Shown piece after piece: positions 111 to 47,171 of a DNA stretch of 64,000 bases. The notes under the pieces were generated by a model. It did not search any database. It saw nothing but the letters and a program-made list of their open reading frames with translations, and was not told the origin of the DNA. Location of the stretch: assembly GCF_009663775.1 (NCBI RefSeq), contig NZ_RDBR01000003.1:1-64000 (forward strand), given 5' to 3'. This DNA comes from Lactobacillus sp. 0.1XD8-4 (GTDB taxonomy: Bacteria > Bacillota > Bacilli > Lactobacillales > Lactobacillaceae). Within the stretch, counting starts at the first letter, position 1. Every line of letters starts with the position of its first letter. A program made the position numbers and the translations under genes.

Positions 111-3035
111 TTAGTTGTGGCGCTTCTTTGAGCTGTAAGTAATACCAATGGTACCAAGCAATGCAGTGGCAGCTAAAGCAACAATTGACATCGAAGATTG
201 ATTTACCTTTTGCGATGATTCATTCTTCTTTGCAGGAGATTGCTTCTTAGCAACAGTTACATCAGCCTTTGTAGCTGACTTCTTACTGTTATCCGCCTTA
301 GTGGCTTTGTTAGCGGTAGCAGCAACTGGTGTAGTAGCAGAATTGTTGTTTGTAGTCGTGCCATTGTTAGTTGTAGCAGCAACAGCAGCAGTTTGGGTTA
401 CAACTGGTGCTTGTTGCGCATTGCCATTTCCAGCTACGCGGTTCGTGGTTGCAACAACTGGAGCAACTGCAACGGGTGCCTGAGTAGCAGTCCGAACAAT
501 TGATGGCGTTGAAACAGTTTGCACATGACTAGCAGCTTGTGGACGGCTAGCGGTGGCTGGGAATGCAACAGTAGCAACATTGCCATTAGTAGTCTTACCT
601 TGAGCTGGAAGAACCACTGTATTGTTACCAAGTTGAACCTTATCAGCGTTCTTAGCAGCATCACGCTTTTGAATTGCAGCTAATTGAACGTTAAATTGGC
701 TTTGAAGCTTATCGTAAGCAGCCTTGTTAGTAGCCTTTAATTCAGCAAGGACTTCATCACCATGAGCAACAACTGCTTGGTGGCGTGCTTGCAATTCTTG
801 AATTTGTGGTTCGATGCTTGGTACTAATTCGGCAATCTTAGCATCAAGTTTAGCATTTTCACTAGTCTTGATATTAGCAATCTTGGCATCACGGTCAGCA
901 GCAAACTTTTGTGCGGCCACTTGGTCAGCCTTAACAAGATTTTGGTAAGCTTCATCTAATTGTGCCTTGTAAGCTTGGAGATCTACTGCACCATTTGCCT
1001 TAAGAGCAGCATCTCGTACACTAACAGCCTTAGCAACAGCATTGTCGTAGTTTGCCTTTACTTGAGCCTTAGCATCATTATATTGTTGAGTAAGCTTATT
1101 TACGTTAGCTTGATGGTCATTTTCTAAGACCTTAAGTGCTTGTTGTGCTTGTGCCTTAACATTAGCCAAGTTTTGTTGTGCTCCAGCAGTATCCTCTTGA
1201 ACTTTTTCATCAGTTGGGTTTACCGTTTGGCTTGTCTTTTCAGTGACAGTGTAATGTTGGGCACCCTTAATTGCATTAGTCTGAGCATCAACTGTTGAAT
1301 TACCCCAAACATTACGTCCTTGAACTTCTTTAGTTAAGTTAGCATTGTGGTCAATGTTGATACCAGTGTGGTCAAAGGTTACGGCATATGAAGGATTTGT
1401 CCGGTCAGAAACACCTGAACCTGGCTTAGTAACCATTGCGTCTGTTAACTTTTGGAAACCAATTCCAACGATGTGAGCATCGGCCCGAAGAAGGTTCTTA
1501 GCGTGACCACCAATGTGTGTAGGATTTACTAATTCACCGTAATACATACCCTGCATTGAGTTGTAAAGGTTGATAGCATAATTAAGTAACGTTGGGTGAG
1601 CAGCTTGCATCGTTGTAAGGTTTTCGTTAGTAACATCATAAACTGTCTTACCTGTAAATTCGTTAGTTAAATCGTTTTGTAGGTTCTTAGTGGCATTGGC
1701 AAGGTAAGCACTATAAGTAGCATCCTTTGGCATTCCACTGCTAGTAATACTGTGACTGTTGTTATCAACATTGTACTTAGTCCGACTAGCAACTACTTGA
1801 TCAGCAACACTATCAGAAATGTTAGTATTTACAAGGTCATTAGGTGCAACATTAGCAAAACCATTTTGACTATTTACAGCATTGTAGAAGTCGCGATAGT
1901 TATTGAAGACATTGTTACGAAAACCATTTTCCCATGAAACTACTAATGCCCGTAATACTTGAATTTGAGCAGCAGATAGACCTTCTGCTGAAACCTTTTC
2001 AGATTGATCGTTCTTAGCATCGTAATTCAATAGACCTGGTTGGAAGTCTAATGGCAGTTCGTTAATACTGTGTGGCGTTGAATCTTCAGCCTTGTTAAGG
2101 ATTACAGAAGAATCAGGATATTCACCATAGTAAGTATTAGCAAATTCTTTGTGTGTGTAAGCTGAAACAGGAATTGTACTATCATAGTAACCAGGAACTT
2201 CTAGACGGATTCCTTGCTTTTGAACGAAATCATCAACCTTAACATCTAGTTGTGACTTAGCAACCCGACCATCTTTAGCTACTTCCTTTGTACCTTCTAC
2301 ATTGTATGGCTTTTTAGCATTAGCAGTAGCGGTAGCAAGTGCTGCTTCAGCGTTCTTTACATTAGCTGCATTGGTTGCTTGTTGTGCATTAACCTTATTT
2401 TGGTAAGCGTCATTTTCTTTTGCAATTGCGGCATTGTAATCGTTAGTAGCACTTTGGTTTTGACTTGTTTGTGTATTAGCAGCATCGCTTAATGACTTTT
2501 GGTATTGTGCTTGAACATCAGCGATTGCTTGTTGGTTTGCAGCTGCTTGACTAACGGCTTGTGCGTACCGTTGATCATTAGCTGTGCGTTGAGCGGCTTC
2601 GTTTTGTTGTTGTGCGTCAATTTGTTGTTGGTATTCAGCATTTGCAGCTGAAGTTTGCGCTTCAATTGAAGCAGCAGTTGAAGCTTGTGCTTGTGCAATA
2701 GCACCAGCTTGTTGTTGTTCTAAGGCAGCATGACTAGCTTTTAATTGATCAATTTGTGCGTTGGTTTGTGCAAGATCCGCAGCATTTGATTGCTCATTGG
2801 CCGTAGCTTGTTGAGCTTCTTTACTATCATTAGCTGATTGCAATTGTGCAAGTTGCTGATCAGCAGTTGCCCGAACTTGATCATAAGTAACTTGGGTGTC
2901 ACTTACTTGTGCATTATTTTGGTTATCATCAGCGTGTGCATTAGTCGTTGAAGTGGTGGTAACGACACCTGCTGTTAAGATTGCCCCCGCAACCAAAGCA
3001 GTTGAACGCCAATTATTTGTATTCGAATTTCTCAT
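111..3035 (-). CDS. SEC10/PgrA-like coiled-coil surface protein
   Basis: Predicted 974-residue secreted cell-surface protein. Residues 1-36 form a signal peptide ending near NAHADD. Residues 37-245 and 615-780 are Ala/Gln/Asn-rich coiled coil. Between them lies a folded block (about 250-600) with the pattern of SEC10/PgrA surface-exclusion proteins, including a CAP-like stretch around HIGGHAKNLL. After a Pro/Thr/Asn-rich linker the C-terminus has a hydrophobic segment and a positive tail (SSKKRHN), as in sortase substrates, but I find no LPXTG motif just before it; the only near match, LPAQG, lies far upstream. Family proteins are linked to aggregation and plasmid exclusion, but the role here is unknown. 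The ATG follows a GGGGG-type ribosome site, and the gene is monocistronic with its own terminator. Confidence 0.7.
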   Translation of the reverse strand: MRNSNTNNWRSTALVAGAILTAGVVTTTSTTNAHADDNQNNAQVSDTQVTYDQVRATADQQLAQLQSANDSKEAQQATANEQSNAADLAQTNAQIDQLKASHAALEQQQAGAIAQAQASTAASIEAQTSAANAEYQQQIDAQQQNEAAQRTANDQRYAQAVSQAAANQQAIADVQAQYQKSLSDAANTQTSQNQSATNDYNAAIAKENDAYQNKVNAQQATNAANVKNAEAALATATANAKKPYNVEGTKEVAKDGRVAKSQLDVKVDDFVQKQGIRLEVPGYYDSTIPVSAYTHKEFANTYYGEYPDSSVILNKAEDSTPHSINELPLDFQPGLLNYDAKNDQSEKVSAEGLSAAQIQVLRALVVSWENGFRNNVFNNYRDFYNAVNSQNGFANVAPNDLVNTNISDSVADQVVASRTKYNVDNNSHSITSSGMPKDATYSAYLANATKNLQNDLTNEFTGKTVYDVTNENLTTMQAAHPTLLNYAINLYNSMQGMYYGELVNPTHIGGHAKNLLRADAHIVGIGFQKLTDAMVTKPGSGVSDRTNPSYAVTFDHTGINIDHNANLTKEVQGRNVWGNSTVDAQTNAIKGAQHYTVTEKTSQTVNPTDEKVQEDTAGAQQNLANVKAQAQQALKVLENDHQANVNKLTQQYNDAKAQVKANYDNAVAKAVSVRDAALKANGAVDLQAYKAQLDEAYQNLVKADQVAAQKFAADRDAKIANIKTSENAKLDAKIAELVPSIEPQIQELQARHQAVVAHGDEVLAELKATNKAAYDKLQSQFNVQLAAIQKRDAAKNADKVQLGNNTVVLPAQGKTTNGNVATVAFPATASRPQAASHVQTVSTPSIVRTATQAPVAVAPVVATTNRVAGNGNAQQAPVVTQTAAVAATTNNGTTTNNNSATTPVAATANKATKADNSKKSATKADVTVAKKQSPAKKNESSQKVNQSSMSIVALAATALLGTIGITYSSKKRHN

Positions 3036-10265: not shown

Positions 10266-10303
10266 AATCCCCACCAGCTTTTTTAGTGTATTTGGCGGGG
10301 ATT
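10266..10303 (+). terminator. Terminator of the aminotransferase-dehydrogenase operon
   Basis: AATCCCC (10266-10272) pairs with GGGGATT (10297-10303) over a loop containing a T-run; the tract after the stem is only weakly T-rich. Confidence 0.6.
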
Positions 10304-10378
10304 ATTAATAAGCAATTAGGTTGAACTATCATGAGTGAAAAAGTAAACTATGGTTAATTAAACGAGGAGGGACTATTG

Positions 10379-10807
10379 ATGACTAAGTATAAAGTAACTG
10401 CGACTAAGACTACCACGGGAATGCAGGTATCAGCTGGTACTCGTGGCTTTGAGATCACTTTTGATGAACCAGGAAGTACCAATACGGGGATGAATCCGGT
10501 CGAGATCCTCCTAACTTCATTTGGCGCTTGCCAAGCAATCACTGCTCAAGCACTAGCTAATAAACGTAATTTTGACTTGCAAGCATTTTGGGTAACTATT
10601 GAGGGTGACCTTGACCGTGAAAATGTCGCTGATGGCAAAAACGTTCGCAAATTTACCGAGATTCGTTACCAACCACACCTCCGCAGCAGTGAATCAGATG
10701 AAGACATTAAAAAGTTCCTCGCTGACGTAGCTGCTAAGTGCCCGGTTGAAAACACCTTAGTTTATGGGACAAAATTCGTCCAAGATGGTTTTGTGCGGGT
10801 AGATTAG
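10379..10807 (+). CDS. OsmC/Ohr family peroxidase-like protein
   Basis: A 142-residue OsmC-fold protein. The two family cysteines are present, C51 (FGACQAI, on the long central helix) and C121 (AKCPVENTL), which in characterised OsmC/Ohr proteins reduce organic hydroperoxides. The length and the final strand fit the YhfA-like branch of the family. The ATG at 10379 is seven bases after GAGGAGGG; a TTG one codon earlier is less well placed. Independent of the upstream operon, which ends at a hairpin. Confidence 0.85.
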   Translation: MTKYKVTATKTTTGMQVSAGTRGFEITFDEPGSTNTGMNPVEILLTSFGACQAITAQALANKRNFDLQAFWVTIEGDLDRENVADGKNVRKFTEIRYQPHLRSSESDEDIKKFLADVAAKCPVENTLVYGTKFVQDGFVRVD

Positions 10808-10845
10808 AACAAACGCCTTGGTGTTTTGATAGGTAGTCAACCTAT

Positions 10846-10911
10846 ACGAATTCTGCAAAAAAACTAACGAATAATGCAAGATGGTCTAAATACTACGATT
10901 TTCCTTATAAT
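10846..10911 (+). promoter_or_regulatory. Pheromone-regulon operator/promoter A
   Basis: Two direct copies of ACGAATNNTGCAA, beginning at 10846 and 10867 (21 bp apart), end 27 bp before TATAAT at 10906-10911. The -35 region is poor. The same arrangement occurs at three other promoters here, as expected for a LytTR-type activator binding on one face of the DNA. It drives the 61-residue membrane protein. Confidence 0.85.
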
Positions 10912-10957
10912 CAATCACATAGAAAATATTCTAATCGGTTGTATAGGGGAGATTGTT

Positions 10958-11143
10958 ATGAAGATTCATTTCAACAGATATTTTTGGCGCAGCGGATCAT
11001 TCTATATGTATTTATTCCTGCTATTCCTTTGGCTAAGCCCTTTTCTCGATGGACCCTTGCCACAATACGAGTCATTGATGTGTATCTTTTTTATCATTTT
11101 CATAATCGGCTCAATACTTAAAACCATGTTTTATAAAGAATAA
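10958..11143 (+). CDS. Small two-segment membrane protein, regulon member
   Basis: A 61-residue protein with two predicted membrane segments (about 17-33 and 41-56) and a basic FNRYFWR motif near the N-terminus. The ATG at 10958 follows GGGGAG and lies 46 bp after the -10 box of operator A; the longer frame starting at 10874 would begin inside the promoter. The start MKIHFNR.F aligns with the 59-residue protein at 13418-13597 (MSSKFNRKF), and both carry Phe/Tyr-rich segments, so they are probably paralogues flanking the peptide exporter. Immunity or sensing is possible but unproven; bacteriocin immunity proteins often have this size and topology. Confidence 0.7.
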   Translation: MKIHFNRYFWRSGSFYMYLFLLFLWLSPFLDGPLPQYESLMCIFFIIFIIGSILKTMFYKE

Positions 11144-11151
11144 TTTATTCA

Positions 11152-11189
11152 ATAAAAGCTCCGTATCCATTGCGATTCGGAGCTTTTAT
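11152..11189. terminator. Bidirectional terminator between the small protein and the exporter
   Basis: A perfect 12-bp stem (ATAAAAGCTCCG at 11152-11163 with its complement at 11178-11189) has A-rich left and T-rich right flanks inside the stem. The stop codon of the minus-strand exporter lies in the right arm. Confidence 0.85.
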
Positions 11190-13330
11190 GCATTCCATAA
11201 GTCATAATAATCTTGATGTTTGCTTAGCAATTCTTGATGGTTCCCTTCCTCAACGATTTTGCCATCATGCATCACAATAATCCTGTCTACTCGTTTTGCA
11301 ATTGAAAGGCGGTGGGCAATAAAAATCATTGTTCGATTCTTAATTCTAATTAAATTATCAATAATTCGTCTTTCAGTAAGCGGATCTAGGCTACTGGTCG
11401 ACTCATCAAAGACCAAAACATGAGCAGAAGATAATAATGCACGAGCAATCGTTAGCCTTTGCTTTTGTCCACCAGACAATACTGTTGCTTCTTCATCTAA
11501 TTTTGTTTCATATTTTAGGGGCAGTGCTTGAATATCCTCATAAATTAACGCCGCTTTGCAAGCACTATCTAGCTCTTTATCAGAAACAGAATGATGGACC
11601 CCCATTAATAAATTCTCCTTAATTGTTCCTGAAAATAACTGTGGTGCTTGGGGCAAATAATGAATGTAATTTCTAACATCAGAAAGGTTAACCTCAGCTA
11701 TATCATGTTCATTAAAAGCTATTTTTCCATGCGTTGGTGCATAAAATCCTACAAGCAATTTCGCTAGCGTTGATTTTCCAGATCCACTAAGGCCTACTAA
11801 GGCAAGCTTTTCATTATCAGCAATTTTCAAATTAATATCTTGTAAAATTGGTTTACTGTATTCATAAGAATAATCAACATGCTGTAAGTCAAGCTTACCG
11901 ACTAAAGCCTGTTGAGGACTTGTATCTGCGGTCAATTTTTCAGTTTCAACTTGTAATACTTCATTTAGTCGATTATTAGCAACTTTTGCTTCTTGAAGCT
12001 TGGGTTGTAAATTAATAATGTTTTGCAACGGACTGATAAAGAAAGTTAATAGTGCATTAAATGCCATTAACATACCAATACTTAAGTTGCCTTGGATTAC
12101 TAATACGGCACCTTGAAAAAGAACAACTGTTACTAATCCATACTGAATCCATATTTTTATTGATTCTTGGAATGACTTTGTTTTGACATAAGATAAATTT
12201 TTCTGCAGAAATTTCGTAAAATTGCTTTCAACGTTTTCATAACGACTCTGTTCCAATTGAAGGACTTTTAACGTTTCGATTCCTTTTAAGTCCTCAATAA
12301 TTGAAGAGGTAAGTTGAGCATTACTTTCCATCTGCTCTTGATTTAATTTAGCAAAGCGTTTATTAAAAGCATAAATAACAAGCGTATAGATTGGAACGGT
12401 AGCAACTGTCGTGAAAAATAATGTCTTACTATACATATAAAGTACTAAACCCGTTACTACCATTATGCCAACATCTAACAGTATCGATATAATCGTACTT
12501 GATAAGGCATCAATTATCTTATTAATATCTTCAAAACGTGATGTAATTTCGCCTGTCTTCCTTGTTGAGAAAAACCGCATCGGTAATTTATAAACGTGTT
12601 GAATATAGCGTAAACTTACTTGGGATGCTAATTTCTGGTCCAAACGGGTTAACAGAAAATCTCTAAAATAATTAAAAGCCGAGTTAAGCAAGTATACAAT
12701 CACTAAACTACCAGCAAGGATACTCAACCCGCTAATATTTTTAGTCGGGATAAAACGATCTATAATTACCTGTAAATAATATGAACCGAAAATACTAACA
12801 ACAGTAATTAGCGCCGCAGATGCAACTATTCCTATAATCTCTTTTTTGTAGTTAACTAACTGACCAAACATACTCATAAGGCCTGCTAACGGTTCTTTTT
12901 TCGGAATATATTTATCAGCTGGTGCAAATAATAAACAGATACCAGACCATAGTTGCCCAAATTCTTCCCGTGGCATCTTTTTAATCTTTGTTGCCGGATC
13001 TGGGTCTGCTACATAGATATAATCTTGATCTGCTTTAAAAACAACGCAAAAGTGCAATAAATCTTCTTTTACAACGTGGGCAATTAGTGGATATTCGATC
13101 TCTGGATCATCAAATAATGATAAATCAGCTTCAATCGGCGTTACATCTAAACCAAGGTGATTAGCCGCTTTAACTAACCCTAATGCAGTAGTTCCTTGTT
13201 TAGTTGTGCGCGCTAAATCACGAAGTTTTGCGATCGGATAAATTGAACCGAAATTACGTAGAATCATTGCTAATGAAGCAACTCCACAATCTGCTTCATC
13301 AACTTGAGCTACATAATGAGGGTAATTCAT
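11186..13330 (-). CDS. Peptidase-containing ABC exporter (C39 type)
   Basis: A 714-residue ComA/LagD-like transporter that removes double-glycine leaders and exports the peptide. The N-terminal C39 protease has C15 (EADCGVAS), H93 (LLHFCVV) and D109 (VADPDP). Six membrane segments occupy roughly 160-450. The nucleotide-binding domain shows GLSGSGKST near 510, the LSGGQKQR signature, VLVFDEST and the IAHR switch. It is the only C39 protein in the window, and the only GG-leader peptide found is the pheromone at 15911-16042, which is its probable substrate. It follows the 59-residue membrane protein by 87 bp on the same strand without an evident terminator, so both are probably driven by operator B. 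No accessory (LagE-type) protein is adjacent. Confidence 0.92.
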   Translation of the reverse strand: MNYPHYVAQVDEADCGVASLAMILRNFGSIYPIAKLRDLARTTKQGTTALGLVKAANHLGLDVTPIEADLSLFDDPEIEYPLIAHVVKEDLLHFCVVFKADQDYIYVADPDPATKIKKMPREEFGQLWSGICLLFAPADKYIPKKEPLAGLMSMFGQLVNYKKEIIGIVASAALITVVSIFGSYYLQVIIDRFIPTKNISGLSILAGSLVIVYLLNSAFNYFRDFLLTRLDQKLASQVSLRYIQHVYKLPMRFFSTRKTGEITSRFEDINKIIDALSSTIISILLDVGIMVVTGLVLYMYSKTLFFTTVATVPIYTLVIYAFNKRFAKLNQEQMESNAQLTSSIIEDLKGIETLKVLQLEQSRYENVESNFTKFLQKNLSYVKTKSFQESIKIWIQYGLVTVVLFQGAVLVIQGNLSIGMLMAFNALLTFFISPLQNIINLQPKLQEAKVANNRLNEVLQVETEKLTADTSPQQALVGKLDLQHVDYSYEYSKPILQDINLKIADNEKLALVGLSGSGKSTLAKLLVGFYAPTHGKIAFNEHDIAEVNLSDVRNYIHYLPQAPQLFSGTIKENLLMGVHHSVSDKELDSACKAALIYEDIQALPLKYETKLDEEATVLSGGQKQRLTIARALLSSAHVLVFDESTSSLDPLTERRIIDNLIRIKNRTMIFIAHRLSIAKRVDRIIVMHDGKIVEEGNHQELLSKHQDYYDLWNA

Positions 13331-13417
13331 TTTATTTACCTTCCTTTCTAATTGTTAAAGAAATAAAGTCCAAAATTATTAGATAATTCTGAACTTCGTA
13401 TCTTAATAAAAGGTTAT

Positions 13418-13597
13418 TCACTTTTTGAACAGAATCCGTAAAGCCGCAAAAATTCCAATAATTGTACAAGCCACACAGATAATTGTTTCATAAATATTGC
13501 TTGCTTTAGGAATTGCTAAAATCCAAAAGAATGTAACTATAATATAAATATAAAAATCAAGGTTAGTATAAAATTTGCGATTAAATTTAGAACTCAT
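13418..13597 (-). CDS. Small membrane protein upstream of the exporter
   Basis: A 59-residue protein with two predicted membrane segments (about 15-32 and 38-55) ending in FKK. The ATG at 13597 is chosen because it aligns with the start of the paralogue at 10958 (M+3 residues+FNR). A GGAAAG ribosome site actually fits a TTG two codons upstream (13603) better, so the exact start is uncertain. First gene behind operator B, followed by the C39 exporter. Candidate immunity-type protein (inference from size, topology, pairing and regulation). Confidence 0.65.
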   Translation of the reverse strand: MSSKFNRKFYTNLDFYIYIIVTFFWILAIPKASNIYETIICVACTIIGIFAALRILFKK

Positions 13598-13641
13598 TAT
13601 CAACACCGTCTTTCCAACAAGATTGTTCTTCTCGCACGATT

Positions 13642-13707
13642 AGTATATATGATAAAAGTTGCCTTGTTTCATTTTGCAAAATTCGTATACTTTCATGCAT
13701 AATTCGT
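13642..13707 (-). promoter_or_regulatory. Pheromone-regulon operator/promoter B
   Basis: On the plus strand, units TTGCAAAATTCGT (13674-13686) and ATGCATAATTCGT (13695-13707) repeat at 21 bp. The promoter-proximal edge (13674) is 27 bp from a minus-strand TATACT (13647-13642), with no good -35. It drives the 59-residue protein and exporter. Confidence 0.87.
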
Positions 13708-13777
13708 CGCCACTTTAAGAAAGCGCTATCATATTATACACCTGTTAGAAAAGCACTTGCAATAAGTCATAAATTAA

Positions 13778-13811
13778 GCAAAGAGACTGAGTTTTTCCCC
13801 AGCCTCTTTGC
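13778..13811 (-). terminator. Terminator of the kinase-regulator operon
   Basis: GCAAAGAG (13778-13785) pairs with CTCTTTGC (13804-13811), and the stem continues inward with G-U pairs. It lies just after the LytTR gene stop. Confidence 0.7.
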
Positions 13812-13828
13812 ATTCTAAGATAAAAATA

Positions 13829-14593
13829 CTATTTCTTCTCTCTTTCAAGAAATTCACTCAACATTTTTACTTTTCGATAACTTACCGTTACTTTCAGTTC
13901 ACTATCACCAAAGTAAACAACGCGTTCTTTCCGATTAAATTCCTGAATTGACAAAGGATTTATCAAGGTGCTTTGATTCACTCGCAACAACCTGTCATCA
14001 TCTATCTTTCGCAATTCACCATGGTACTCAATACGAATATTTTTGCCCACAATTCGCAAACGACGATTTTCATTTTTTACGGATTCAATATAATATAAAT
14101 CATCAAAATTGACTTGGCGTTTTACACCGTGAATTGGCTCATAAGTAAATTTATCTTGCTTTTTTTGTCCGCCATTAATATAGTTCTGGTAACGCAAATA
14201 TGCTTCATCAATATCTTTTCGCAAGCGATCAGTGATTGATGTAATATCCTGACCCTTAGAAACATAATCAAAAGGTTCAATTCGACGTGATACGGTATAC
14301 GGTAAATATTCTTGATAAGCTGTCACAAAAATAATTTCAGCAAATTCTGATTTTTTACGGATTTCCTCCGCAACATCTATCCCACTAATTTTATTATCCA
14401 GTTCAATATCTAAAATTGCGAGATAATCTTCATCTTTTACCTTTTTTATTACTTCTTGGGGATCATCTGTTTGTAGCCAAACCTTCATATCATGACTTTG
14501 CGGAGTATTATTAATCATCCGCCGTTGAGTAACTATTTTCTCAATATAATCAGATTGATAATCATTATTTTCTAAAATAATTACCTTTAGCAT
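13829..14593 (-). CDS. LytTR response regulator (AgrA/ComE/PlnC type)
   Basis: A 254-residue regulator. The receiver domain (1-130) has phospho-acceptor D62 (LAILDIELD), T97-type switch region (VTAYQEY) and K at 118 (YVSKGQD). The LytTR domain (about 150-250) shows YYIESVKNENRRLRIVG and the end VSYRKVKML. Such regulators bind paired direct repeats about two helical turns apart, exactly the pattern at the four operators listed here. It starts seven bases after the kinase stop and is the last gene of the L,D-transpeptidase-peptides-pheromone-kinase operon. Confidence 0.93.
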   Translation of the reverse strand: MLKVIILENNDYQSDYIEKIVTQRRMINNTPQSHDMKVWLQTDDPQEVIKKVKDEDYLAILDIELDNKISGIDVAEEIRKKSEFAEIIFVTAYQEYLPYTVSRRIEPFDYVSKGQDITSITDRLRKDIDEAYLRYQNYINGGQKKQDKFTYEPIHGVKRQVNFDDLYYIESVKNENRRLRIVGKNIRIEYHGELRKIDDDRLLRVNQSTLINPLSIQEFNRKERVVYFGDSELKVTVSYRKVKMLSEFLEREKK

Positions 14594-14600
14594 TTTATTC

Positions 14601-15914
14601 TCACTTTCCTTGAATAAAACAAGTCATAATAATTACCTTATCTTTCACTTCTGCAGAAAAAGAATAATGGTCATCATTTTCAACTAGTTGCGTTACATTT
14701 GAAAGGCCAATTCCTTGATGTCCTCCCTTAGTTGAATGTTCAAATTTCATGGCCACATTAATATTAATTTTATCCGCTAACGAATTAGCAACCACCAACT
14801 CATATACCTGTTCACTATGTTTAATTAGTGCAAATTGGATATACGGTTTAGCTTGTCTTAGGGTTGCTTCAATTGCATTATCCATTAAAATTCCAATAAT
14901 TCGCGCAGTCTTTATTTCTGACCCCGGTAATTTATCAATTTCAGTATTAACCTCAAATGAGAAAGGAATACCCTTTTCTACTATTTTGTAAGCTTTTTCC
15001 TTAATCAAATTATGCAAACCTGAAATTTTTATTTTATCTAACGCATGATCAACTTCATCATAGTGCTTCTCGGCCGTGTCATTTTGAAGAAACGTCGATA
15101 ATATATCCTCTGCTTCTTTATCTTTATGATCACGAATATACCCTTGAACACTAAGGAGCATATTACGCATATCATGACGCTCACGTCGGATTTCATCGTA
15201 TTGTTTGTTTATTTTATGAGCACTTGCAATTTGTGATTGGTAACTATCAATTAATCGTTGTTGGTATTGAGTCCGCTCATTATTTTTCACAAAATTAAGA
15301 AAACCAGTAACAGACACTATTATGATTATAAAATACATGATTAACAGTAATGAAGCGTACCTATCAGCAATTTCTTCTTCTTCTGCAATAACAGTTAACC
15401 AAATATAAAGTATAAAATAGATAGCAGTTATTTCCCATAATTGAATAGGATTGGGAAATTTAATATAGAACCATTTGATTTTAGGACAAATAATCTTAAT
15501 TACAAATACACCCACAATAAAAGTTAAAACACAATCATTCAATGGAATTAACCAGCCTAAAAGTGATATATGTGCCTTTCCTTGTATAAAAAATGTATAA
15601 GTATAATGATCTACTAAATCGAATAACGATGACATTATGATACTAGTACACATCGCAAGAATACTATTTATAGCTATATAGGGGTTAGATTTTATTCTGT
15701 CAACTAACCACAAATAAAATACTATAAGTACTGGATAGAACGATCCTAGCATCATAAATATTGCTGATAAGAATATCATCATCAAAATAGCTAAAAAGTC
15801 AGTTATTATTAATTTCAACGATAAATTTTTTGTTATCAATCGGTAAATTAAAATAATTTCAACAATATTTGATATAGATGATGCTAATCCTTGTCTCACA
15901 GTTAATTCAATCAT
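14601..15914 (-). CDS. HPK10-type sensor histidine kinase for the peptide pheromone
   Basis: A 437-residue kinase with six or seven membrane segments (residues 10-210), a coiled linker, the phospho-acceptor motif with H247 in RRERHDMRN, and a GHKL ATPase domain with N-box DNAIEAT and GGHQGIGLSNV. This matches kinases that sense bacteriocin-type induction peptides (PlnB, ComD, AgrC). The ATG overlaps the stop codon of the pheromone gene (ATGA), so ligand and receptor are translationally coupled. Its partner is the LytTR regulator immediately downstream. Confidence 0.92.
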   Translation of the reverse strand: MIELTVRQGLASSISNIVEIILIYRLITKNLSLKLIITDFLAILMMIFLSAIFMMLGSFYPVLIVFYLWLVDRIKSNPYIAINSILAMCTSIIMSSLFDLVDHYTYTFFIQGKAHISLLGWLIPLNDCVLTFIVGVFVIKIICPKIKWFYIKFPNPIQLWEITAIYFILYIWLTVIAEEEEIADRYASLLLIMYFIIIIVSVTGFLNFVKNNERTQYQQRLIDSYQSQIASAHKINKQYDEIRRERHDMRNMLLSVQGYIRDHKDKEAEDILSTFLQNDTAEKHYDEVDHALDKIKISGLHNLIKEKAYKIVEKGIPFSFEVNTEIDKLPGSEIKTARIIGILMDNAIEATLRQAKPYIQFALIKHSEQVYELVVANSLADKININVAMKFEHSTKGGHQGIGLSNVTQLVENDDHYSFSAEVKDKVIIMTCFIQGK

Positions 15915-16042
15915 CTTTTAATCCATTTTAAAACTGCTCTTTCCCATGAGCGTGGGCTTTTAAAAGCTAGTGAATAGCCCCAACCACCTAATACTTTAGA
16001 TAATTCTTTCTCTGATAAAACTTTATATGATTTCTTTAACAT
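15911..16042 (-). CDS. Double-glycine peptide pheromone precursor
   Basis: A 43-residue precursor. The leader ends in LSEKELSKVLGG, which fits the double-glycine consensus position by position (L-12, S-11, E-8, L-7, V-4, G-2, G-1). Cleavage would release a 23-residue cationic peptide beginning WGYSLAFKSP and ending LKWIKR, with three Trp and seven Lys/Arg, able to form an amphipathic helix. Ribosome site GGAGGA precedes the ATG. The stop overlaps the kinase start, the hallmark of pheromone-kinase-regulator cassettes. Processing and export are assigned to the C39 transporter at 11186-13330. A bacteriocin-like activity of the mature peptide cannot be excluded. Confidence 0.85.
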   Translation of the reverse strand: MLKKSYKVLSEKELSKVLGGWGYSLAFKSPRSWERAVLKWIKR

Positions 16043-16069
16043 AATTATCCTCCATCAAATAATAATTAC

Positions 16070-16225
16070 TTATTTAATCAAAATTCCAGTAACATTAGCT
16101 AAGATTAACATGACAATGAATACCATCAAATTTATTGGACCTGCATGTAAGATGCAGTACAACAAAATCAATCCAATATAAAAGAGATTAATAATAATCA
16201 GATTTTTCTTCTTCTCTAAATCCAT
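16070..16225 (-). CDS. 51-residue hydrophobic membrane protein in the pheromone operon
   Basis: A 51-codon frame with a charged start (MDLEKKKN) and two hydrophobic stretches (about 9-26 and 31-50). A GGGAT ribosome-site remnant precedes the ATG, 27 bp separate its stop from the pheromone start, and 10 bp separate it from the preceding 32-residue frame. No double-glycine leader. Function unknown; its position between the L,D-transpeptidase and the pheromone suggests a part in signalling or immunity. Confidence 0.55.
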   Translation of the reverse strand: MDLEKKKNLIIINLFYIGLILLYCILHAGPINLMVFIVMLILANVTGILIK

Positions 16226-16235
16226 TGTTAAATCC

Positions 16236-16334
16236 CTACTTTATCCATCCCTCTGATAATGCAAAAGAAATAATAATCGTCAAAACAAAGCAAACAACTG
16301 CAATCATTATTGAGCGTTCAGCACTTGGGCGCAT
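16236..16334 (-). CDS. 32-residue single-pass membrane peptide in the pheromone operon
   Basis: A 32-codon frame starting MRPSAERS, with one membrane segment (about 9-26) and the end SEGWIK. AAAGGAGAA precedes the ATG with good spacing; it begins 13 bp after the L,D-transpeptidase stop. No known family is recognised. The ribosome site and tight packing argue that it is translated. Confidence 0.55.
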   Translation of the reverse strand: MRPSAERSIMIAVVCFVLTIIISFALSEGWIK

Positions 16335-16347
16335 AATATATTCTCCT

Positions 16348-17742
16348 TTAATAGATAATTACAGGTTCGTTTTTCTGTAAATCATGAAACGCTTGTCCAG
16401 CGATATCTGGGTGCATATTAATACATCCATGCGATCCGCCACCTTTAGCCATATAGGCATGTTTTGACCAATCATGGCGCCAGCTTGCATCATGGAAACC
16501 ACATCCACTATCTGTAAATGGTGACCAGTATTGTACCTTACTAGCGTACTTTGAACCATCATCATTTAATCCACGAAGAACCGATGGCGTTTGTTGGTAC
16601 ATAATGTACCAAACACCTTTGGGCGTTTCATTATCTTTATTGTTTGTTCCACTAACAATATCAGTACTAAGGACACATTTGCCATCTTTATAAAACCAAG
16701 CATGTTGATCAGCTATCGAAACTTCGGCATAAGTACCGCCTATTCCATTATTAGCCGTGGTATCATATCCTGTTCCATGCTGGTTATAGCCTTCACCGTA
16801 AATGTCGTCCTTTGCATTTACTTTCTGTTTATTTTCGACTAATGCATTAACAAGAGTTTTACCTGCTTGCTTTTTACTAATTTTCCATCCATACGATCCA
16901 GCATCCGTTGTTTTAATCACCGACCCACTATGAGTTTTAAATTCAAAGGCTTTACCAAGGGTTGCTTGCTTATTATTTATTTCATCAATCTTTGAATCAG
17001 CTGCAGCTGTATCAAAATGATATTTACCGTCTTGGTATGTAGCTCTAGTAACAATGTCAGCACAATTTAACCGATATTTCTTATCCTGTACTTGGTATAT
17101 TACCGTCCGCTTCGATATTTCTTCAAGCTTTGCTTTTTCATTTTGAACAGTTTTACTATTTGCTGAAAGCGGAGCTTTATATACCGGTTTCAACTTAACG
17201 GTTCCATTAACAACTTCTTTTTCAAGCTTTTTATGCAATCCATCTACGCTATATTGGGTTCCACCAACTGCTTGCTTAACCTGTACACCGCCATTTTCAT
17301 ATACAGCATAAGCATCAATTGGAGCTTTTCGACCATTATTTAACTCAATCACCTTTTGATTAACTGCCTGGTCAATCTGAGGAATCATATTTTGATTAAA
17401 ATTTTGTGGTTTAATTAAAATATTCTTTTCTTTAGCCGATGGAAAGAATGTATATTGACTGCGTAATGCATTTTTTACCTTTTGTTCATCAGCTTTACTA
17501 AACTTTGCAACTGGTTGCTTTTCTGCATATACTAAATCACTATTTATATATACTTTTGGTGATCGAGGATTATCTTGTAATTTTTTCAAAGCTTGTTTAG
17601 CAGTTAAACCACCAACTGCCACGTTATCGATACTAACGTTTTTATTAAAATGACGATGCTGGTGAATTGTCATGCAGCCTACTACTAGCACTAACAAGCA
17701 CAGGATGATTATTATCAGTTGTTTAATAGATAAATTCCGCAT
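16348..17742 (-). CDS. L,D-transpeptidase (YkuD) with N-terminal membrane anchor
   Basis: A 464-residue membrane-anchored wall enzyme. Residues 8-26 form the anchor; about 35-320 contain peptidoglycan-binding_4-type repeats; the C-terminal YkuD domain (about 340-464) has the catalytic S-H-G-C motif SHGCINMHPD with C440. L,D-transpeptidases make 3-3 crosslinks or attach proteins to peptidoglycan. It opens the operon that continues with two small peptides, the pheromone, kinase and regulator (13 bp to the next frame). Its promoter shows no copy of the regulon operator, so the sensing cassette may be expressed constitutively. A wall-modifying enzyme beside a regulated wall hydrolase suggests a protective role (inference). 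Confidence 0.88.
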   Translation of the reverse strand: MRNLSIKQLIIIILCLLVLVVGCMTIHQHRHFNKNVSIDNVAVGGLTAKQALKKLQDNPRSPKVYINSDLVYAEKQPVAKFSKADEQKVKNALRSQYTFFPSAKEKNILIKPQNFNQNMIPQIDQAVNQKVIELNNGRKAPIDAYAVYENGGVQVKQAVGGTQYSVDGLHKKLEKEVVNGTVKLKPVYKAPLSANSKTVQNEKAKLEEISKRTVIYQVQDKKYRLNCADIVTRATYQDGKYHFDTAAADSKIDEINNKQATLGKAFEFKTHSGSVIKTTDAGSYGWKISKKQAGKTLVNALVENKQKVNAKDDIYGEGYNQHGTGYDTTANNGIGGTYAEVSIADQHAWFYKDGKCVLSTDIVSGTNNKDNETPKGVWYIMYQQTPSVLRGLNDDGSKYASKVQYWSPFTDSGCGFHDASWRHDWSKHAYMAKGGGSHGCINMHPDIAGQAFHDLQKNEPVIIY

Positions 17743-17767
17743 AAAAGTACTCCAACTTAATAATTTA

Positions 17768-17821
17768 AATATAGAAATGCCCTACACACTACATCATTAT
17801 AGCAGTAGGGTTTTCTATATT
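17768..17821 (-). terminator. Terminator after the NlpC/P60 gene, overlapping a possible promoter
   Basis: Arms 17768-17785 and 17804-17821 (AATATAGAAA, CCCTAC and complements) form a long stem with one interruption, 25 bp after the hydrolase stop. The loop holds TATAAT (minus strand, 17801-17796) that may serve the L,D-transpeptidase operon. Confidence 0.7.
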
Positions 17822-17846
17822 AAACTAGAAAAACAAATATTTTTAA

Positions 17847-19766
17847 TTATAAAACACGACGTGCAAAACTAGGCATCCAGTAACGCATTGGTTGTTCTTT
17901 TACTGTTTGACCAGGTTGGGGAGCAAACAATGTGTTCCCATTGCCTGTGTAAATTCCAACATGATAGACGCCCCTAGAATTACTCCAGAATAGTAAATCT
18001 CCAGGTTGTAAGTTATTAAAACTAACACCATATCCACGAGTAGATTGTTGAGCTGCTGTCCGTGGAAGGTTAATACCTACTTGACGGTATACATATTGAA
18101 CAAGTCCAGAACAATCAAAAGAATTTGGACCAGTTGCACCATATACATATGGTTTTCCAAGTTGTTGCCGAGCTAATGATATAATTTGCTCAGCTTTCGA
18201 ACCTTGATTGACTGGATTTTGAGACGGAGTACTTGGCACGTTTGTACTCATACCATTAAACGAAAAATTATTTGAATCTGTTCCGAATGTTTGTCCCGTA
18301 CTCAAATTCTTTATTGCAGCATAACGCCGAGCACCACTATAGCTCATGTATGATACCCAAAGATAGCCGTTAGCAACTACCTTGGAATCATAAGTAAAAC
18401 TTTGTCCACCACTGTATTGAGCCATTACGGCTGATGACGTACTTGGTGCTTGACGAATATTTAATCCGTAAGCAACTCTGAATGTTCCGCGTTGTTGCAT
18501 CGTAGTCCCATCTGCTGGAGTGCTTGGTGTTGGTGCAGGCGTTGGCGTACTTGGTGTTGGGTTGTTAAATGAGAAATTATTTGAATCTGTTCCGAATGTT
18601 TGTCCCGTACTTAAATTCTTTATTGCCACATAACGGCGAGCACCACTATAACTCATATATGACACCCAAAGATAACCATTGGCTTCTACTTTAGAATCAT
18701 AAGTAAAGCTTTGTCCGCCATTATATCTAGCCATTATAGCTGATGATGTACTTGGTGCTTGACGTACATTTAACCCATAGGCAACTCTGAATGTTCCACG
18801 TTGTTGCATTGTACCATTTCCAGATGTTGATGGTTGCGTTGGTTGTTCTACTGGCGCTGTAGTTCCACCATGGTTTTGGAAATATTGATACCAGTATTGT
18901 GCTTGCTGGCCTCGTGCAGGTTGGTTACGATTAGCTGGTCGTTCAAAGTTATTAAGCCAAATCATTCCAAGATTATAGGCTGAATCATAACTATGCATAT
19001 ATTCATTCGCTGTCATTCTTGAATAACGAGATGGATAGTATTGTTGCCCATGTGTCATTTGATATTGGATATATGCACACTGTCCTTGCAATGTTCGATA
19101 ATCATATCCATTATTTCTACACCAACCTTGAACAGCCGATGCAGGCCATTGAGCTATTCCATAACCTGGACCACCGCCATATTGATGAAGGTCTGGAATA
19201 AGTCCTGATTCAGAAACAAAGTTACCTAGCATTCCAGCAATCGCATTTGTCGTCCATCCTTGATTTATAAAGTAATTATGAATATAAGTTGCATTGTTAA
19301 CTTGCTGTTGAGTGTAGTTTGTTGTATACAATGATGTAAACAATTGTGCGTACGATACTGGTGATTGTGATGACGGGTTGAATGTTTGAGTAGATTCAAC
19401 TGCCTCTTCGTTAGCAGGTTTGGCATACAATGTCATATTTTCCGTAGTATGTAAATCAATGCCTTGATTTACAGAATTGCTATCCACGGCTGATGTAGCT
19501 GATGTAACGCTTGTAGCAACGGATGACGTATTTGGTGCCTCACTTGCAACTTCTGTGCTTGTTACTACCGGTGTATCTGACTGATTGCTATTCGTCACTG
19601 CAACACTATTACTACTTGCCGCATCACCATTTGATTGTGGCAATGTTTGAACAGTTGTAGGTATTTGATCTTGGCTAACAGTATCTGCCTTTGCATTTGT
19701 TACCGAAATAGCCATCAAAGCAATTGGAGCTGCTAAATAAATCCCTAGACGTCTATTAACTTTCAT
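17847..19766 (-). CDS. Secreted phage-lysozyme-like + SH3 + NlpC/P60 wall hydrolase
   Basis: A 639-residue modular peptidoglycan hydrolase. A signal peptide (1-29, ending NAKAD) and a Ser/Thr/Val-rich linker precede a phage-tail-lysozyme-like domain (about 135-285; GNFVSESGL, GYGIAQWPAS). Two nearly identical SH3-like repeats follow (about 310-380 and 415-490; RGTFRVAYGLN, SGARRY), then NlpC/P60 (about 520-639) with C552 (FDCSGL) and H602 (YHVGIY). It should cut both glycan and peptide. Operator C lies upstream, so a pheromone appears to induce a wall-lytic enzyme. The ATG at 19766 starts the signal peptide; an upstream ATG at 19787 overlaps the GGGAG ribosome site. Confidence 0.9.
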   Translation of the reverse strand: MKVNRRLGIYLAAPIALMAISVTNAKADTVSQDQIPTTVQTLPQSNGDAASSNSVAVTNSNQSDTPVVTSTEVASEAPNTSSVATSVTSATSAVDSNSVNQGIDLHTTENMTLYAKPANEEAVESTQTFNPSSQSPVSYAQLFTSLYTTNYTQQQVNNATYIHNYFINQGWTTNAIAGMLGNFVSESGLIPDLHQYGGGPGYGIAQWPASAVQGWCRNNGYDYRTLQGQCAYIQYQMTHGQQYYPSRYSRMTANEYMHSYDSAYNLGMIWLNNFERPANRNQPARGQQAQYWYQYFQNHGGTTAPVEQPTQPSTSGNGTMQQRGTFRVAYGLNVRQAPSTSSAIMARYNGGQSFTYDSKVEANGYLWVSYMSYSGARRYVAIKNLSTGQTFGTDSNNFSFNNPTPSTPTPAPTPSTPADGTTMQQRGTFRVAYGLNIRQAPSTSSAVMAQYSGGQSFTYDSKVVANGYLWVSYMSYSGARRYAAIKNLSTGQTFGTDSNNFSFNGMSTNVPSTPSQNPVNQGSKAEQIISLARQQLGKPYVYGATGPNSFDCSGLVQYVYRQVGINLPRTAAQQSTRGYGVSFNNLQPGDLLFWSNSRGVYHVGIYTGNGNTLFAPQPGQTVKEQPMRYWMPSFARRVL

Positions 19767-19801
19767 TATAAATAAACTCCCTTTCATTTAATTCAATGAA
19801 A

Positions 19802-19867
19802 ATTATATATAAAAAATAAAATTTTGGAGCAATTTGCAATATTCGTATCGTTTTCTGCAGAATTCGT
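19802..19867 (-). promoter_or_regulatory. Pheromone-regulon operator/promoter C
   Basis: Units TTGCAATATTCGT (19834-19846) and CTGCAGAATTCGT (19855-19867) repeat at 21 bp. The proximal edge is 27 bp from a perfect minus-strand TATAAT (19807-19802), with no -35 match. It drives the wall hydrolase. Confidence 0.87.
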
Positions 19868-19876
19868 TAATTTTAA

Positions 19877-19910
19877 TAAAAAAAGCAGTATAAGATTTCT
19901 CTTACCTGCT
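19877..19910 (-). terminator. Terminator of the 214-residue secreted protein gene
   Basis: The stem AGCAG..TAAGA (19884-19895) / TCTTA..CTGCT (19900-19910) is followed on the minus strand by a seven-T run. It lies just upstream of operator C, insulating the two regulon units. Confidence 0.85.
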
Positions 19911-19925
19911 CATTAAAATAGATCA

Positions 19926-20570
19926 TTATTTTACATTCGTAACCTGATACTGTCCATTGCCATTTGCTTTATAGTAAACAGTTTTACCATTATAGGTTAC
20001 ATAGCCGTTGCCTTCTTTGGCATTTTTATAAAATTCTTCAGCGGATGTTTTACTGTCAATTACTCCCGCTTTTTGGGCAGCCCGGTAACTAAAATTCATC
20101 CCATCTTGGACTGTTACTGGTTGCTGGGTCCGTGCTGCTGATGTCGTCTTTTGTGATGTCTTCTGACGGTTGGTTTGCTTTACTGCTGATACGCCATTAC
20201 TCTTGTGATAAGTCGGTGCTGCATTTTGGGTTTGATTATTATTAGCAGCCACTGTTTGCGCTGTACCTGCGTTATTGTTGTTTTGCGCCGATTGGGTAGT
20301 ACCTGCACTGTTCGGTGCTGATGAATTAGCAGTTTCATCATTATCATCCCCCGCAGTTGTGCTATCACTATCCGCCTCGTCGGACGAACTGTTTTTCTTA
20401 GCTTCCTGATGATGTTTCTTAGAACTGCTTGTACTTAACGTCTCCGTCTTCGTTGGTTTGTCTGCTGCCACATCCTTGGATGATGCTGGTCTTAAGAGCA
20501 TATATCCGCCACATACCACGATAATTACAACTAATAATGAAACAATGATTAATTTGCCCCTATTTTTCAT
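19926..20570 (-). CDS. Membrane-anchored low-complexity secreted protein, regulon member
   Basis: A 214-residue protein. Residues 6-24 form a membrane segment or uncleaved signal (LIIVSLLVVIIVVCGG). Residues 30-155 are Ser/Thr/Asn/Gln/Asp-rich linker. The last 60 residues form a small domain (GMNFSYRAAQKAGV, EEFYKNAKEGNGYVTYNGKTVYY). I recognise no catalytic motif. The ATG at 20570 follows GAGGAG; the apparent longer frame begins with a TTG within the ribosome site. Operator D lies 38 bp upstream, so it should be coinduced with the wall hydrolase and exporter. Confidence 0.7.
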   Translation of the reverse strand: MKNRGKLIIVSLLVVIIVVCGGYMLLRPASSKDVAADKPTKTETLSTSSSKKHHQEAKKNSSSDEADSDSTTAGDDNDETANSSAPNSAGTTQSAQNNNNAGTAQTVAANNNQTQNAAPTYHKSNGVSAVKQTNRQKTSQKTTSAARTQQPVTVQDGMNFSYRAAQKAGVIDSKTSAEEFYKNAKEGNGYVTYNGKTVYYKANGNGQYQVTNVK

Positions 20571-20607
20571 AACTCTAATACTCCTCAATAATTACTTTTA
20601 TCCTTGT

Positions 20608-20673
20608 AGTATACCTAATATTTTTCTTAGTGGGTCAATTTGCAAGATTCGTAACGATTTTTGCAGAATTCGT
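20608..20673 (-). promoter_or_regulatory. Pheromone-regulon operator/promoter D
   Basis: Units TTGCAAGATTCGT (20640-20652) and TTGCAGAATTCGT (20661-20673) repeat at 21 bp, with the proximal edge 27 bp from minus-strand TATACT (20613-20608). It drives the 214-residue secreted protein. The divergent gene at 20783 has its own TATAAT at 20746-20751. Confidence 0.87.
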
Positions 20674-20782
20674 CATATTCCGCCAAATATTTTACTAAAA
20701 AGTAAAGAAATAGTAAAGAAGCGTTTTCATTTAATGAAATAGGCTTATAATATCGATGATTAAATTTTTGGAGGGGTTTAAC

Positions 20783-22105
20783 ATGAGAAGAGTTAAACTA
20801 TTTAGCGCGGCATTAGCCGTAGTCGCCGGATTATCATTTGCTGAAACTAATGTCAACGCTGCACAGCATAGCAATAATAATACAAACGATGTTAATGAAG
20901 TTGGTTCCCTTATTTATGCCAATGCGTATGGACAAAATTATGTAAATGACGCCCACAGTATTAGCGTCTTTAAAGATAGTAACGGACGCTACGGAATTGG
21001 CCAGGGAACAGCTGATAGCACCGCTTTCTTTAAGATTAACAATGATGGCACTGTTACCATTTGGCAAATCAAGGGCGACCCGAATACCCCCACATATAAG
21101 CAAGGATATACCAAGAAGACGGTGCCGATTTCAAGCCTCCAAAAGTCCGAAAATCAGACTTCTGCCCAAAAGGCCACAATCAACCACGCAATTTCATCAA
21201 TCAAGAATACGCCATCAGCAACACCAACTCAAAGTAGTCAGGCGGGCAACACTGCTAGTTCTAGTAACACCAATGTCCACCAACTACTGCAAGATGGTCA
21301 AGTAATCGATGACTTAGGGCTGCAACTCTATAACCGCTACTATGGGACGGCCTACCAAAATCCAAACTTAAATGTATTCAAAGACAGTAACGGTCGAATG
21401 GGTATTGGCCGTGGTAGTTTCAGTAATACTATTTATTACAAGATCAACAGTGATGGTAAGACGATGACTGTTTGGCGCCCGGTTTCTAACGCTAATACGC
21501 CTGTCGCTAAACAACAATACACAACTTCCACCGTTTCATTAAGTTCTCTCGGCTTTAACCCCGATGGTCAACCAAGTACACAATCAAATTCAAGTAGCAG
21601 CGCAACCAGCCAAGCTAATGCTAATTCTGCTTCCACAAGCAGTCAAACAACACAAACTAGTTCTGCTGCGAAAACAGCAACGGCCGATCCTGCAATCACT
21701 AGTGCCCGGCCAACTGCTAAGGAAAACAAACAAGTCGCCAAAACTGCTAGCAAGAAGATTACGGTTCCTTCTTCTCAAGGTAAAGAAACCCTCTCTTACT
21801 ACAGGATTGCGGCCCTCGTTTATGCCAAAGCATATGGTATCGACCGTCTTGGCAGTAACCAAGGTTTGCAATTAACAATGAACAAAAATCATTCTCGCTT
21901 TATCCTTGGCGAAGGAACCGCTGATAGTACCCTGCTTTTCCGAGTAAACCAAGGAAAGAAGACCGTAACAGTCTGGACGCTTAACGATAACGACCGGACA
22001 ATGAACAAAAACACATATGAAATTAGTGCATTAGTCAACGAATTCTATGCTAACAGCACTGAACAAAATCTAGTTAATGAAACTGCACAATCATTGAAGA
22101 AATAG
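20783..22105 (+). CDS. Secreted protein with three related ~80-residue repeats
   Basis: A 440-residue exported protein with a signal peptide (about 1-26, ending NVNA) and no cell-wall anchor. Three diverged repeats, about residues 36-120, 175-258 and 340-425, share the pattern Y.KAYG...FK.S..R..IG.GTADST..F.IN....T..TVW, separated by Ser/Gln/Thr-rich linkers. I do not recognise the repeat family. The ATG at 20783 follows GGAGGGG; the track-style longer start at 20756 lies at the transcription start, five bases after TATAAT. It is divergent from the regulon-D gene, and operator D could in principle also affect it. Confidence 0.75.
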   Translation: MRRVKLFSAALAVVAGLSFAETNVNAAQHSNNNTNDVNEVGSLIYANAYGQNYVNDAHSISVFKDSNGRYGIGQGTADSTAFFKINNDGTVTIWQIKGDPNTPTYKQGYTKKTVPISSLQKSENQTSAQKATINHAISSIKNTPSATPTQSSQAGNTASSSNTNVHQLLQDGQVIDDLGLQLYNRYYGTAYQNPNLNVFKDSNGRMGIGRGSFSNTIYYKINSDGKTMTVWRPVSNANTPVAKQQYTTSTVSLSSLGFNPDGQPSTQSNSSSSATSQANANSASTSSQTTQTSSAAKTATADPAITSARPTAKENKQVAKTASKKITVPSSQGKETLSYYRIAALVYAKAYGIDRLGSNQGLQLTMNKNHSRFILGEGTADSTLLFRVNQGKKTVTVWTLNDNDRTMNKNTYEISALVNEFYANSTEQNLVNETAQSLKK

Positions 22106-41561: not shown

Positions 41562-41736
41562 ATCAATGATTCCCTCCGTTGGGTTAATTGATTAATACTT
41601 CAATTCTGCTTTACATAGGTGCTTCTATTATAGCACAAGGGGAAAAAGCTTAACGAATTTTCAAGAAATTGCGAGAAAACATTTGACATTTTAGTAGCAA
41701 CAAGTTAAAATAATTAAGTATTCTGTTAAAGGATAT

Positions 41737-41809
41737 GGGCAGTTAGCTCAGCTGGCAGAGCAACGGACTCTTAATCCGTGGGTCCAGGGTTCGATCCCCT
41801 GACTGCCCA
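41737..41809 (+). tRNA. tRNA-Lys(CTT), copy 1
   Basis: A 73-nt cloverleaf: acceptor GGGCAGT/ACTGCCC, D stem GCTC/GAGC, anticodon stem ACGGA/TCCGT with loop CTCTTAA (anticodon CTT), T stem CAGGG/CCCTG with TTCGATC. All stems pair. CCA is not encoded. One of three copies in 5.4 kb. Confidence 0.95.
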
Positions 41810-41821
41810 TCAGAGGTTTAC

Positions 41822-47167: not shown

Positions 47168-47171
47168 TTCT

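Follow-up and report, generated by a model that had tools for sequence, protein, structure and literature searches.

The streptococcal ComCDE system combines a double-glycine (GG) precursor with a LytTR regulator. In the regulation of class II bacteriocins (plantaricin pln, sakacin spp), the genes follow the order pheromone, kinase, LytTR regulator and are accompanied by a C39 exporter, the direct repeats are about two helical turns apart, and a direct repeat right before the pheromone gene is usual. Staphylococcal agr works with the AgrD thiolactone and AgrB. The receptor of ComCDE is described as an HPK10 kinase with a membrane part of ~220 residues, and the pherotypes of S. pneumoniae are defined by receptor variants that are each specific for a CSP variant (PMC4873836). 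Two gene sets of L. reuteri 100-23 are also relevant here (PMC3873254). Lr70430-70432, which encode a kinase, a LytR/AlgR regulator and a bacteriocin-processing peptidase, are reported as found only in this strain. Lr70529-70533 encode a kinase, a regulator, a bacteriocin-like peptide, an ABC transporter and a C39 exporter; this set contributes to biofilm in the mouse forestomach, a transporter mutant forms less biofilm in mice, and its function and targets were then still to be identified (PMC3873254). The parts of that report devoted to these genes do not name Lr70430 among the biofilm contributors and list no pheromone gene with either set. The bfrKRT and cemAKR systems, which may be these same sets, influence biofilm formation in vitro (PMC5917019, PMC5039595).

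The locus presented here lies in a stretch of 64,000 nucleotides from Lactobacillus sp. 0.1XD8-4 (the window). Its cassette has the features of GG-pheromone/HPK10/LytTR systems, i.e. a GG precursor beside the kinase, a kinase made of a membrane part and a GHKL domain, a LytTR regulator, a C39 exporter and direct-repeat promoters (Table 1). It shares the gene order, the C39 exporter and the repeat spacing of about two helical turns with pln and spp and, going by its description (PMC4873836), the kinase type and the size of its membrane part with ComCDE. Unlike in pln and spp, no bacteriocin structural gene was found in the locus, and the repeats precede a peptidoglycan hydrolase gene and a gene for a membrane-anchored protein, with none right before the pheromone gene. 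Unlike in ComCDE, the repeats stand directly before cell-wall genes and the variable block is common to different species of a gut Lactobacillaceae genus; in contrast to pneumococcal competence, the regulator would control the hydrolase directly. The L. reuteri 100-23 sets resemble the window in the order kinase, regulator, C39 exporter, a likeness that is one of gene descriptions, and Lr70529-70533 appears closest to the type found in L. balticus, in which the regulator and exporter genes flank an effector peptide. Systems of this kind are already known; what is new is the interspecies pherotype block and the predicted cell-wall targets.

Table 1. Features of the pheromone locus, in window coordinates
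Feature	Position	Strand	Remarks
Direct repeat	20641-20673	minus	-10 TATACT 27 bp downstream; before 214-aa protein gene
Membrane-anchored extracellular protein, 214 aa, no assigned function	19926-20570	minus	
Direct repeat	19835-19867	minus	-10 TATAAT 27 bp downstream; before hydrolase and the row to pheromone, kinase and regulator
Secreted peptidoglycan hydrolase	17847-19766	minus	Phage_lysozyme2, SH3 domains, NlpC/P60
YkuD-type L,D-transpeptidase with PG_binding_4	16348-17742	minus	Heads the conserved gene row to the pheromone; synteny
smA, conserved 32-aa membrane peptide	16236-16334	minus	
smB, conserved 51-aa membrane peptide	16070-16225	minus	Directly upstream of the pheromone gene
Pheromone precursor gene	15911-16042	minus	TIGR01847 above cut-off; GG peptide here in 6/6 intact close kinase loci
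Leader	15983-16042	minus	
Mature peptide WGYSLAFKSPRSWERAVLKWIKR	15914-15982	minus	
Stop codon of precursor	15911-15913	minus	
Sensor histidine kinase, AgrC/ComD (HPK10-like) type	14601-15914	minus	PF14501 GHKL domain
Hypervariable sensor half of kinase (~residues 1-220, far edge approximate)	15255-15914	minus	Inherited with the mature peptide
Response regulator with LytTR DNA-binding domain	13829-14593	minus	PF00072 and PF04397 above cut-off
Terminator-like hairpin 3' of regulator gene	13778-13811	minus	Hairpin scan
Direct repeat	13675-13707	minus	-10 TATACT 27 bp downstream; before 59-aa gene and exporter
Small membrane protein, 59 aa	13418-13597	minus	Immunity-like by position only
ABC exporter with N-terminal C39 double-glycine peptidase	11186-13330	minus	PF03412, PF00664, PF00005
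Small membrane protein, 61 aa	10958-11143	plus	Immunity-like by position only; beyond exporter
Direct repeat	10846-10878	plus	-10 TATAAT 27 bp downstream; before 61-aa gene

The genes are transcribed in the order transpeptidase, 32-aa and 51-aa peptides, precursor, kinase and regulator; the hairpin follows, and then the 59-aa gene and the exporter. The 61-aa protein is a weak paralogue (29%) of the 59-aa protein. Divergent from the gene of the 214-aa protein, positions 20756-22105 encode a 449-aa, probably secreted protein with a Lreu_0056_like domain.

The precursor gene, on the minus strand, begins with an ATG at 16042, has a ribosome-binding site (GGAGG, 6 bases 5' of the ATG) and ends with a TGA after 43 codons; at 132 nt it exceeds the default minimum length of at least one common gene caller. 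Its product consists of a leader of 20 residues, MLKKSYKVLSEKELSKVLGG, and a mature part of 23 residues, WGYSLAFKSPRSWERAVLKWIKR, which is cationic (net charge +5) and amphipathic and contains three Trp. The frame had been singled out in a preliminary description for its GG-consensus leader, for a Trp- and Lys/Arg-rich mature part and for a stop codon overlapping the kinase start, and in all of this it holds. The frame is real by its start, stop and ribosome-binding site and by its conservation in the loci of relatives, the leader scores 18.8 bits against NCBIfam model TIGR01847 (curated cut-off 15.7), and the precursor and kinase genes (kinase start 15914) share the four bases ATGA. The order pheromone, kinase, LytTR regulator, also put forward there, is borne out by a GHKL kinase followed by a gene with Response_reg and LytTR domains. 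The leader model is passed by only two of the six precursors from the intact close-kinase loci described below. A strict GG-leader pattern, devised after the precursor sequence was known, picks out a single ORF in the window and nothing in 60 dinucleotide-shuffled versions of it. The mature peptides of all six precursors are 19-23 residues long, and only one relative, L. balticus, has a precursor similar over its whole length (74%). A literature search returned no description of the peptide WGYSLAFKSPRSWERAVLKWIKR or of the direct repeat, although there may be an earlier one.

The kinase has hydrophobic segments up to residue 211, the H-box His at residue 247 and then the GHKL domain. Its best solved relative is S. 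aureus AgrC (6e52, E 2.9e-18), and the nearest NCBIfam models for kinase and regulator are those of staphylococcal agr, both far below cut-off; unlike agr, the window has a linear GG peptide and a C39 exporter. The exporter reaches 888 bits against TIGR01193 (cut-off 523.85).

When the kinase was searched against 50 genomes of the genus (E 1e-10), 23 had a match. In six of the 50, the kinase is full-length and intact, reaches at least 59% identity and has the same genes around it; these are the window's genome, G004 (L. balticus BG-AF3-A), G002, G036 (L. reuteri WF-AA1-C), G007 and G039 (L. rudii STM3_1), so the peptide–kinase comparison rests on five relatives. Conservation of the frame in relatives that keep the kinase had been set beforehand as a check, and a GG precursor gene was found at each of the six kinases; it overlaps the kinase gene by 4 bases in four loci and by 1 base in L. 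rudii, and abuts it in G007. Two further relatives have broken kinases (seven stops in G038, a fragment in G034). In both, the gap between the 51-aa peptide gene and the start of the kinase is about eleven bases, which means that the pheromone gene is gone there: it is lost in 2/2 relatives with a broken kinase. In front of the kinase of G009 (43% identity to that of the window; at about 209301-210563 of contig C1) lies a frame of 29 codons that lacks GG. This frame (locus L052) has a hydrophobic start and ends in SWAWFLHGKW. All remaining matching genomes show at most 34% kinase identity over the matched part.

Among nine genomes searched with TIGR01193, matches over cut-off occur in five (two in the window's genome, and in G002, G004, G036 and G039) and none in G007, G009, G034 and G038. 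In G007 (contig C1, locus L049), the pheromone, kinase and regulator are kept and the C39 exporter is reduced at this place to a 21-residue remnant, so this may possibly be a strain that listens without sending. In a search of 350 genomes of the family, 25 match the kinase at E 1e-25, five of them within the genus, and identity outside the genus is at most 30%. Plasmid-borne relatives of the kinase are found in three Ligilactobacillus salivarius records, where they match residues 213-436 only (~37% identity).

A hypervariable block, consisting of the mature peptide together with the membrane half of the kinase, stands out in this otherwise conserved locus. L. balticus and G002 are nearly the same on both sides of it (transpeptidase 96%, 51-aa peptide 94%, leader 20/20; rest of the kinase 92%, regulator 91%, exporter 96%), but differ strongly within it, where 9/21 residues of the mature peptide and 54% of the first 200 kinase residues are identical. 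The window and L. balticus show the opposite: the mature peptide is kept at 20/23 residues, the leader at only 12/20, and identities are 86% in both the N- and the C-half of the kinase, versus 85% in the transpeptidase, 76% in the 51-aa peptide, 74% in the regulator and 77% in the exporter. Sliding 150-base windows of DNA identity place one edge of the block near the GG site and the other, which is less sharp, at about kinase residues 160-260. Between the window and L. balticus, DNA identity is 85-91% at the end of the transpeptidase gene and 68-72% just before the pheromone gene.

Codon usage at unchanged residues follows the same division. Between the window and L. balticus, 84% of such codons are identical in the sensor half and 51-63% in the rest of the kinase, the regulator, the transpeptidase and the exporter; between L. 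balticus and G002, the figures are 58% in the sensor half and 81-89% elsewhere. This contrast suggests that the block was replaced by recombination and did not arise by fast protein change only. Trees built from six taxa, or from five in the case of the exporter, agree with this. The sensor-half tree joins the window and L. balticus with a support of 100/100, and this clade is rejected for the transpeptidase (p-AU 2.9e-7), the regulator (1.9e-5) and the exporter (6.1e-5); for the kinase C-half it is not rejected (p-AU 0.067). Identities of mature peptides and sensor halves correlate in Pearson's measure (0.76, reached by 4 of 720 Mantel permutations) but not significantly in rank (Spearman 0.24), and the correlation therefore comes mainly from one pair. 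Overall, the comparisons support joint inheritance of mature peptide and sensor half in the decisive pairs. The block shared by the window and L. balticus looks as exchanged pherotypes would, which points to recombination. The six natural peptide–receptor variants are suited to synthesis and cross-testing.

The direct repeats have the architecture ACGAATTNTGCA, N9, ACGAATTNTGCA (33 bp, 21-bp period). The pattern was derived from an alignment of the gap between regulator and exporter in five loci, so the five exporter-side sites fit it by construction. At up to three mismatches, it occurs four times in the window, never in 100 shuffles and nowhere else in the 2.2-Mb assembly. The 50 genomes of the genus contain 23 matches, 21 of which fall in eight genomes (G000, which is the window's, G002, G004, G007, G009, G034, G036 and G039), and a reversed control pattern has four matches in the same 50. 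All eight carry this kinase, the related one of G009 or a remnant; G038, with its broken kinase, has no direct repeat. The two other matches, in G030 and G031, have the same letters and two mismatches and are considered chance, as they come with neither a -10 box nor a kinase match. Sixteen of the 21 sites were not used in writing the pattern, but those from closely related genomes are not independent observations. When identical 80-base stretches are dropped, each of the 20 distinct sites is followed by a -10 hexamer (at least 5/6), at 27 bp in 19 and at 28 bp in one (27 bp was favoured only for ties).

The period of two helical turns and the LytTR domain of the regulator suggest that the repeats are promoter elements of this regulator. 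The predicted regulon is local, with four promoters within 10 kb, and would include cell-wall enzymes; by position, its units are the hydrolase, the 214-aa protein, the 59-aa and 61-aa immunity-like genes and the C39 exporter. No direct repeat stands right before the pheromone gene; the best repeat-like place in the interval that begins 400 bp 5' of the transpeptidase gene and ends at the kinase scores 15/24. Autoinduction would thus depend on read-through. The hairpin behind the regulator gene is the sole terminator-like one in 10300-21000 found by a scan that covers loops of 3-8 bases and is blind to longer ones, which would allow read-through from the repeat at 19835. In L. balticus, an imperfect hairpin with a T-run, noticed by eye, lies between the repeat and the transpeptidase gene (the scan reports it on the other strand only), and in G009 the repeat is ~200 bases before the transpeptidase gene. 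The hydrolase gene of G002, like that of the window, is located behind a repeat; such an arrangement might fit streptococcal-type fratricide, in which a pheromone-controlled secreted peptidoglycan hydrolase goes with an immunity factor. The G002 gene is split over two contigs, with the N-terminal part (76% identical) behind the repeat and the C-terminal part (93%) upstream of the transpeptidase gene. In the other four intact loci, the stretches examined showed no hydrolase gene, so the hydrolase looks like an accessory member.

The locus is very probably best explained as a three-component quorum-sensing cassette with a local regulon of four promoters and an exchanged pherotype block, and the interpretation of the short frame as the pheromone gene of a receptor-kinase cassette, given in the preliminary description, is supported. 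The C39 ABC transporter encoded nearby would cleave the precursor after Gly-Gly and export it. The 23-residue peptide would then bind the membrane half of the adjacent kinase, as its joint inheritance with that half suggests, and the kinase, judging by its domains, would phosphorylate the LytTR regulator. The latter is expected to bind the 33-bp direct repeats, which are separated by 27 bp from the -10 box downstream, and the four promoters would switch on the exporter, the hydrolase, the 214-aa membrane-anchored protein and both of the small immunity-like proteins. Transcription running on from the hydrolase promoter may in addition raise the L,D-transpeptidase, pheromone, kinase and regulator, creating positive feedback. 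The mature peptide and the sensor half would be the pherotype block exchanged between Limosilactobacillus species. The presence of a GG peptide with all six intact close kinases and its loss with both broken ones speak for this cassette, whereas the G009 kinase without a GG peptide and G007 without an exporter over the TIGR01193 cut-off speak against it. Also to be weighed against it are the missing repeat before the pheromone gene, the hairpin noticed in L. balticus, the four precursors that do not pass TIGR01847, the correlation that comes mainly from one pair, the result for the kinase C-half, the high DNA identity at the transpeptidase end and the small number of relatives.

The effector peptides of relatives bear on its alternatives. 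The exporter-side repeat of three relatives (L. balticus, G002 and L. reuteri WF-AA1-C) is followed by the gene of a second GG peptide, whose precursor is 52 residues long. The window was compared with two of the relatives' effectors, a pair of G016 peptides and a second pheromone encoded in the same genome; the GG-type matches returned were to the leader of the pheromone itself, and neither this comparison nor the pattern gave a convincing second GG peptide or bacteriocin structural gene in the window. A looser pattern that allows Gly-Ala picks out ORFs at 11437-11622 and 62046-62309 (both plus strand), which were rejected as they are antisense inside large genes and have no Gly-Gly. The second GG peptide of L. 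balticus is WSLSSQVNELVKDVVNSLNKWVQSCYAGYKDSPFH; GG peptides of L. rudii and G016 carry C-terminal motifs (ASSFHE, NSSPFN) similar to those of WSLSSQVNELVKDVVNSLNKWVQSCYAGYKDSPFH-type peptides, and the effector-like GG peptide gene of L. rudii lies on the opposite strand near the exporter-side repeat (locus L050 3809-3967).

That the precursor frame is a chance or untranslated ORF before the kinase might be suggested by its shortness and by L. balticus being the sole relative similar over the full length. Against this, a GG frame occupies the same place in 6/6 intact loci, the 20-residue leader is identical in L. balticus and G002, and the leader pattern occurs in 0/60 shuffles. Conservation across the loci and the shuffle control, post hoc as its pattern is, make a chance frame so improbable that it was dropped. 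A peptide that is cationic and amphipathic, has a bacteriocin-type leader and is encoded in a locus with immunity-like genes could also be a bacteriocin, or an antimicrobial plus signal as plantaricin A is reported to be, and not mainly a pheromone, with the kinase sensing something else. We regard this as improbable. The mature part varies with the sensor half of the kinase, contrary to the trees of regulator, transpeptidase and exporter, and a plain bacteriocin does not predict such joint inheritance; the mature length stays at 19-23 residues in all six precursors, and in three relatives the effector place behind the repeat is filled by the separate 52-residue GG precursor.

The locus might instead be the decaying remnant of a bacteriocin system that has lost its effector, leaving a signal and receptor without use. 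Comparison with the relatives' effectors finds no effector GG peptide in the window, and cassettes do decay, as seen in G038 and G034. In the window, however, open frames are kept for the precursor, the kinase, the regulator, the exporter, the transpeptidase and the hydrolase, the four repeat promoters have exact spacing, and the mature peptide is kept at 20/23 residues relative to L. balticus though the leader is not, so a remnant seems rather unlikely compared with a working pheromone cassette.

With such a cassette, the window locus offers a testable link of peptide signalling to cell-wall enzymes in gut lactobacilli. A more tentative possibility, which we put forward with considerable doubt, joins these features into pherotype-specific lysis or wall remodelling in these bacteria. 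The regulator would directly switch on the hydrolase together with matching protection, bacteria of other pherotypes would be targeted, and the block would be swapped between species by recombination. Peptides of this class might then also supply the missing signal of an L. reuteri biofilm two-component system.

The same genome carries a second pheromone–kinase–regulator–C39 exporter cassette on contig C50 (locus L105 3964-9094), adjoined on the other strand by genes for two GG peptides (68 and 62 aa). The pheromone of this cassette starts with YGYALTFKS, that of the window with WGYSLAFKS (E 2.5e-5, leader included), a likeness that makes cross-talk conceivable. Elsewhere in the window, positions 111-3035 encode a 974-aa predicted surface protein rich in Gln and Ala, with no Pfam match at E 0.1, and three tRNA-Lys(CTT) genes (41736-41811, 44512-44587 and 47094-47168) are located within 5.5 kb, with other genes between them.
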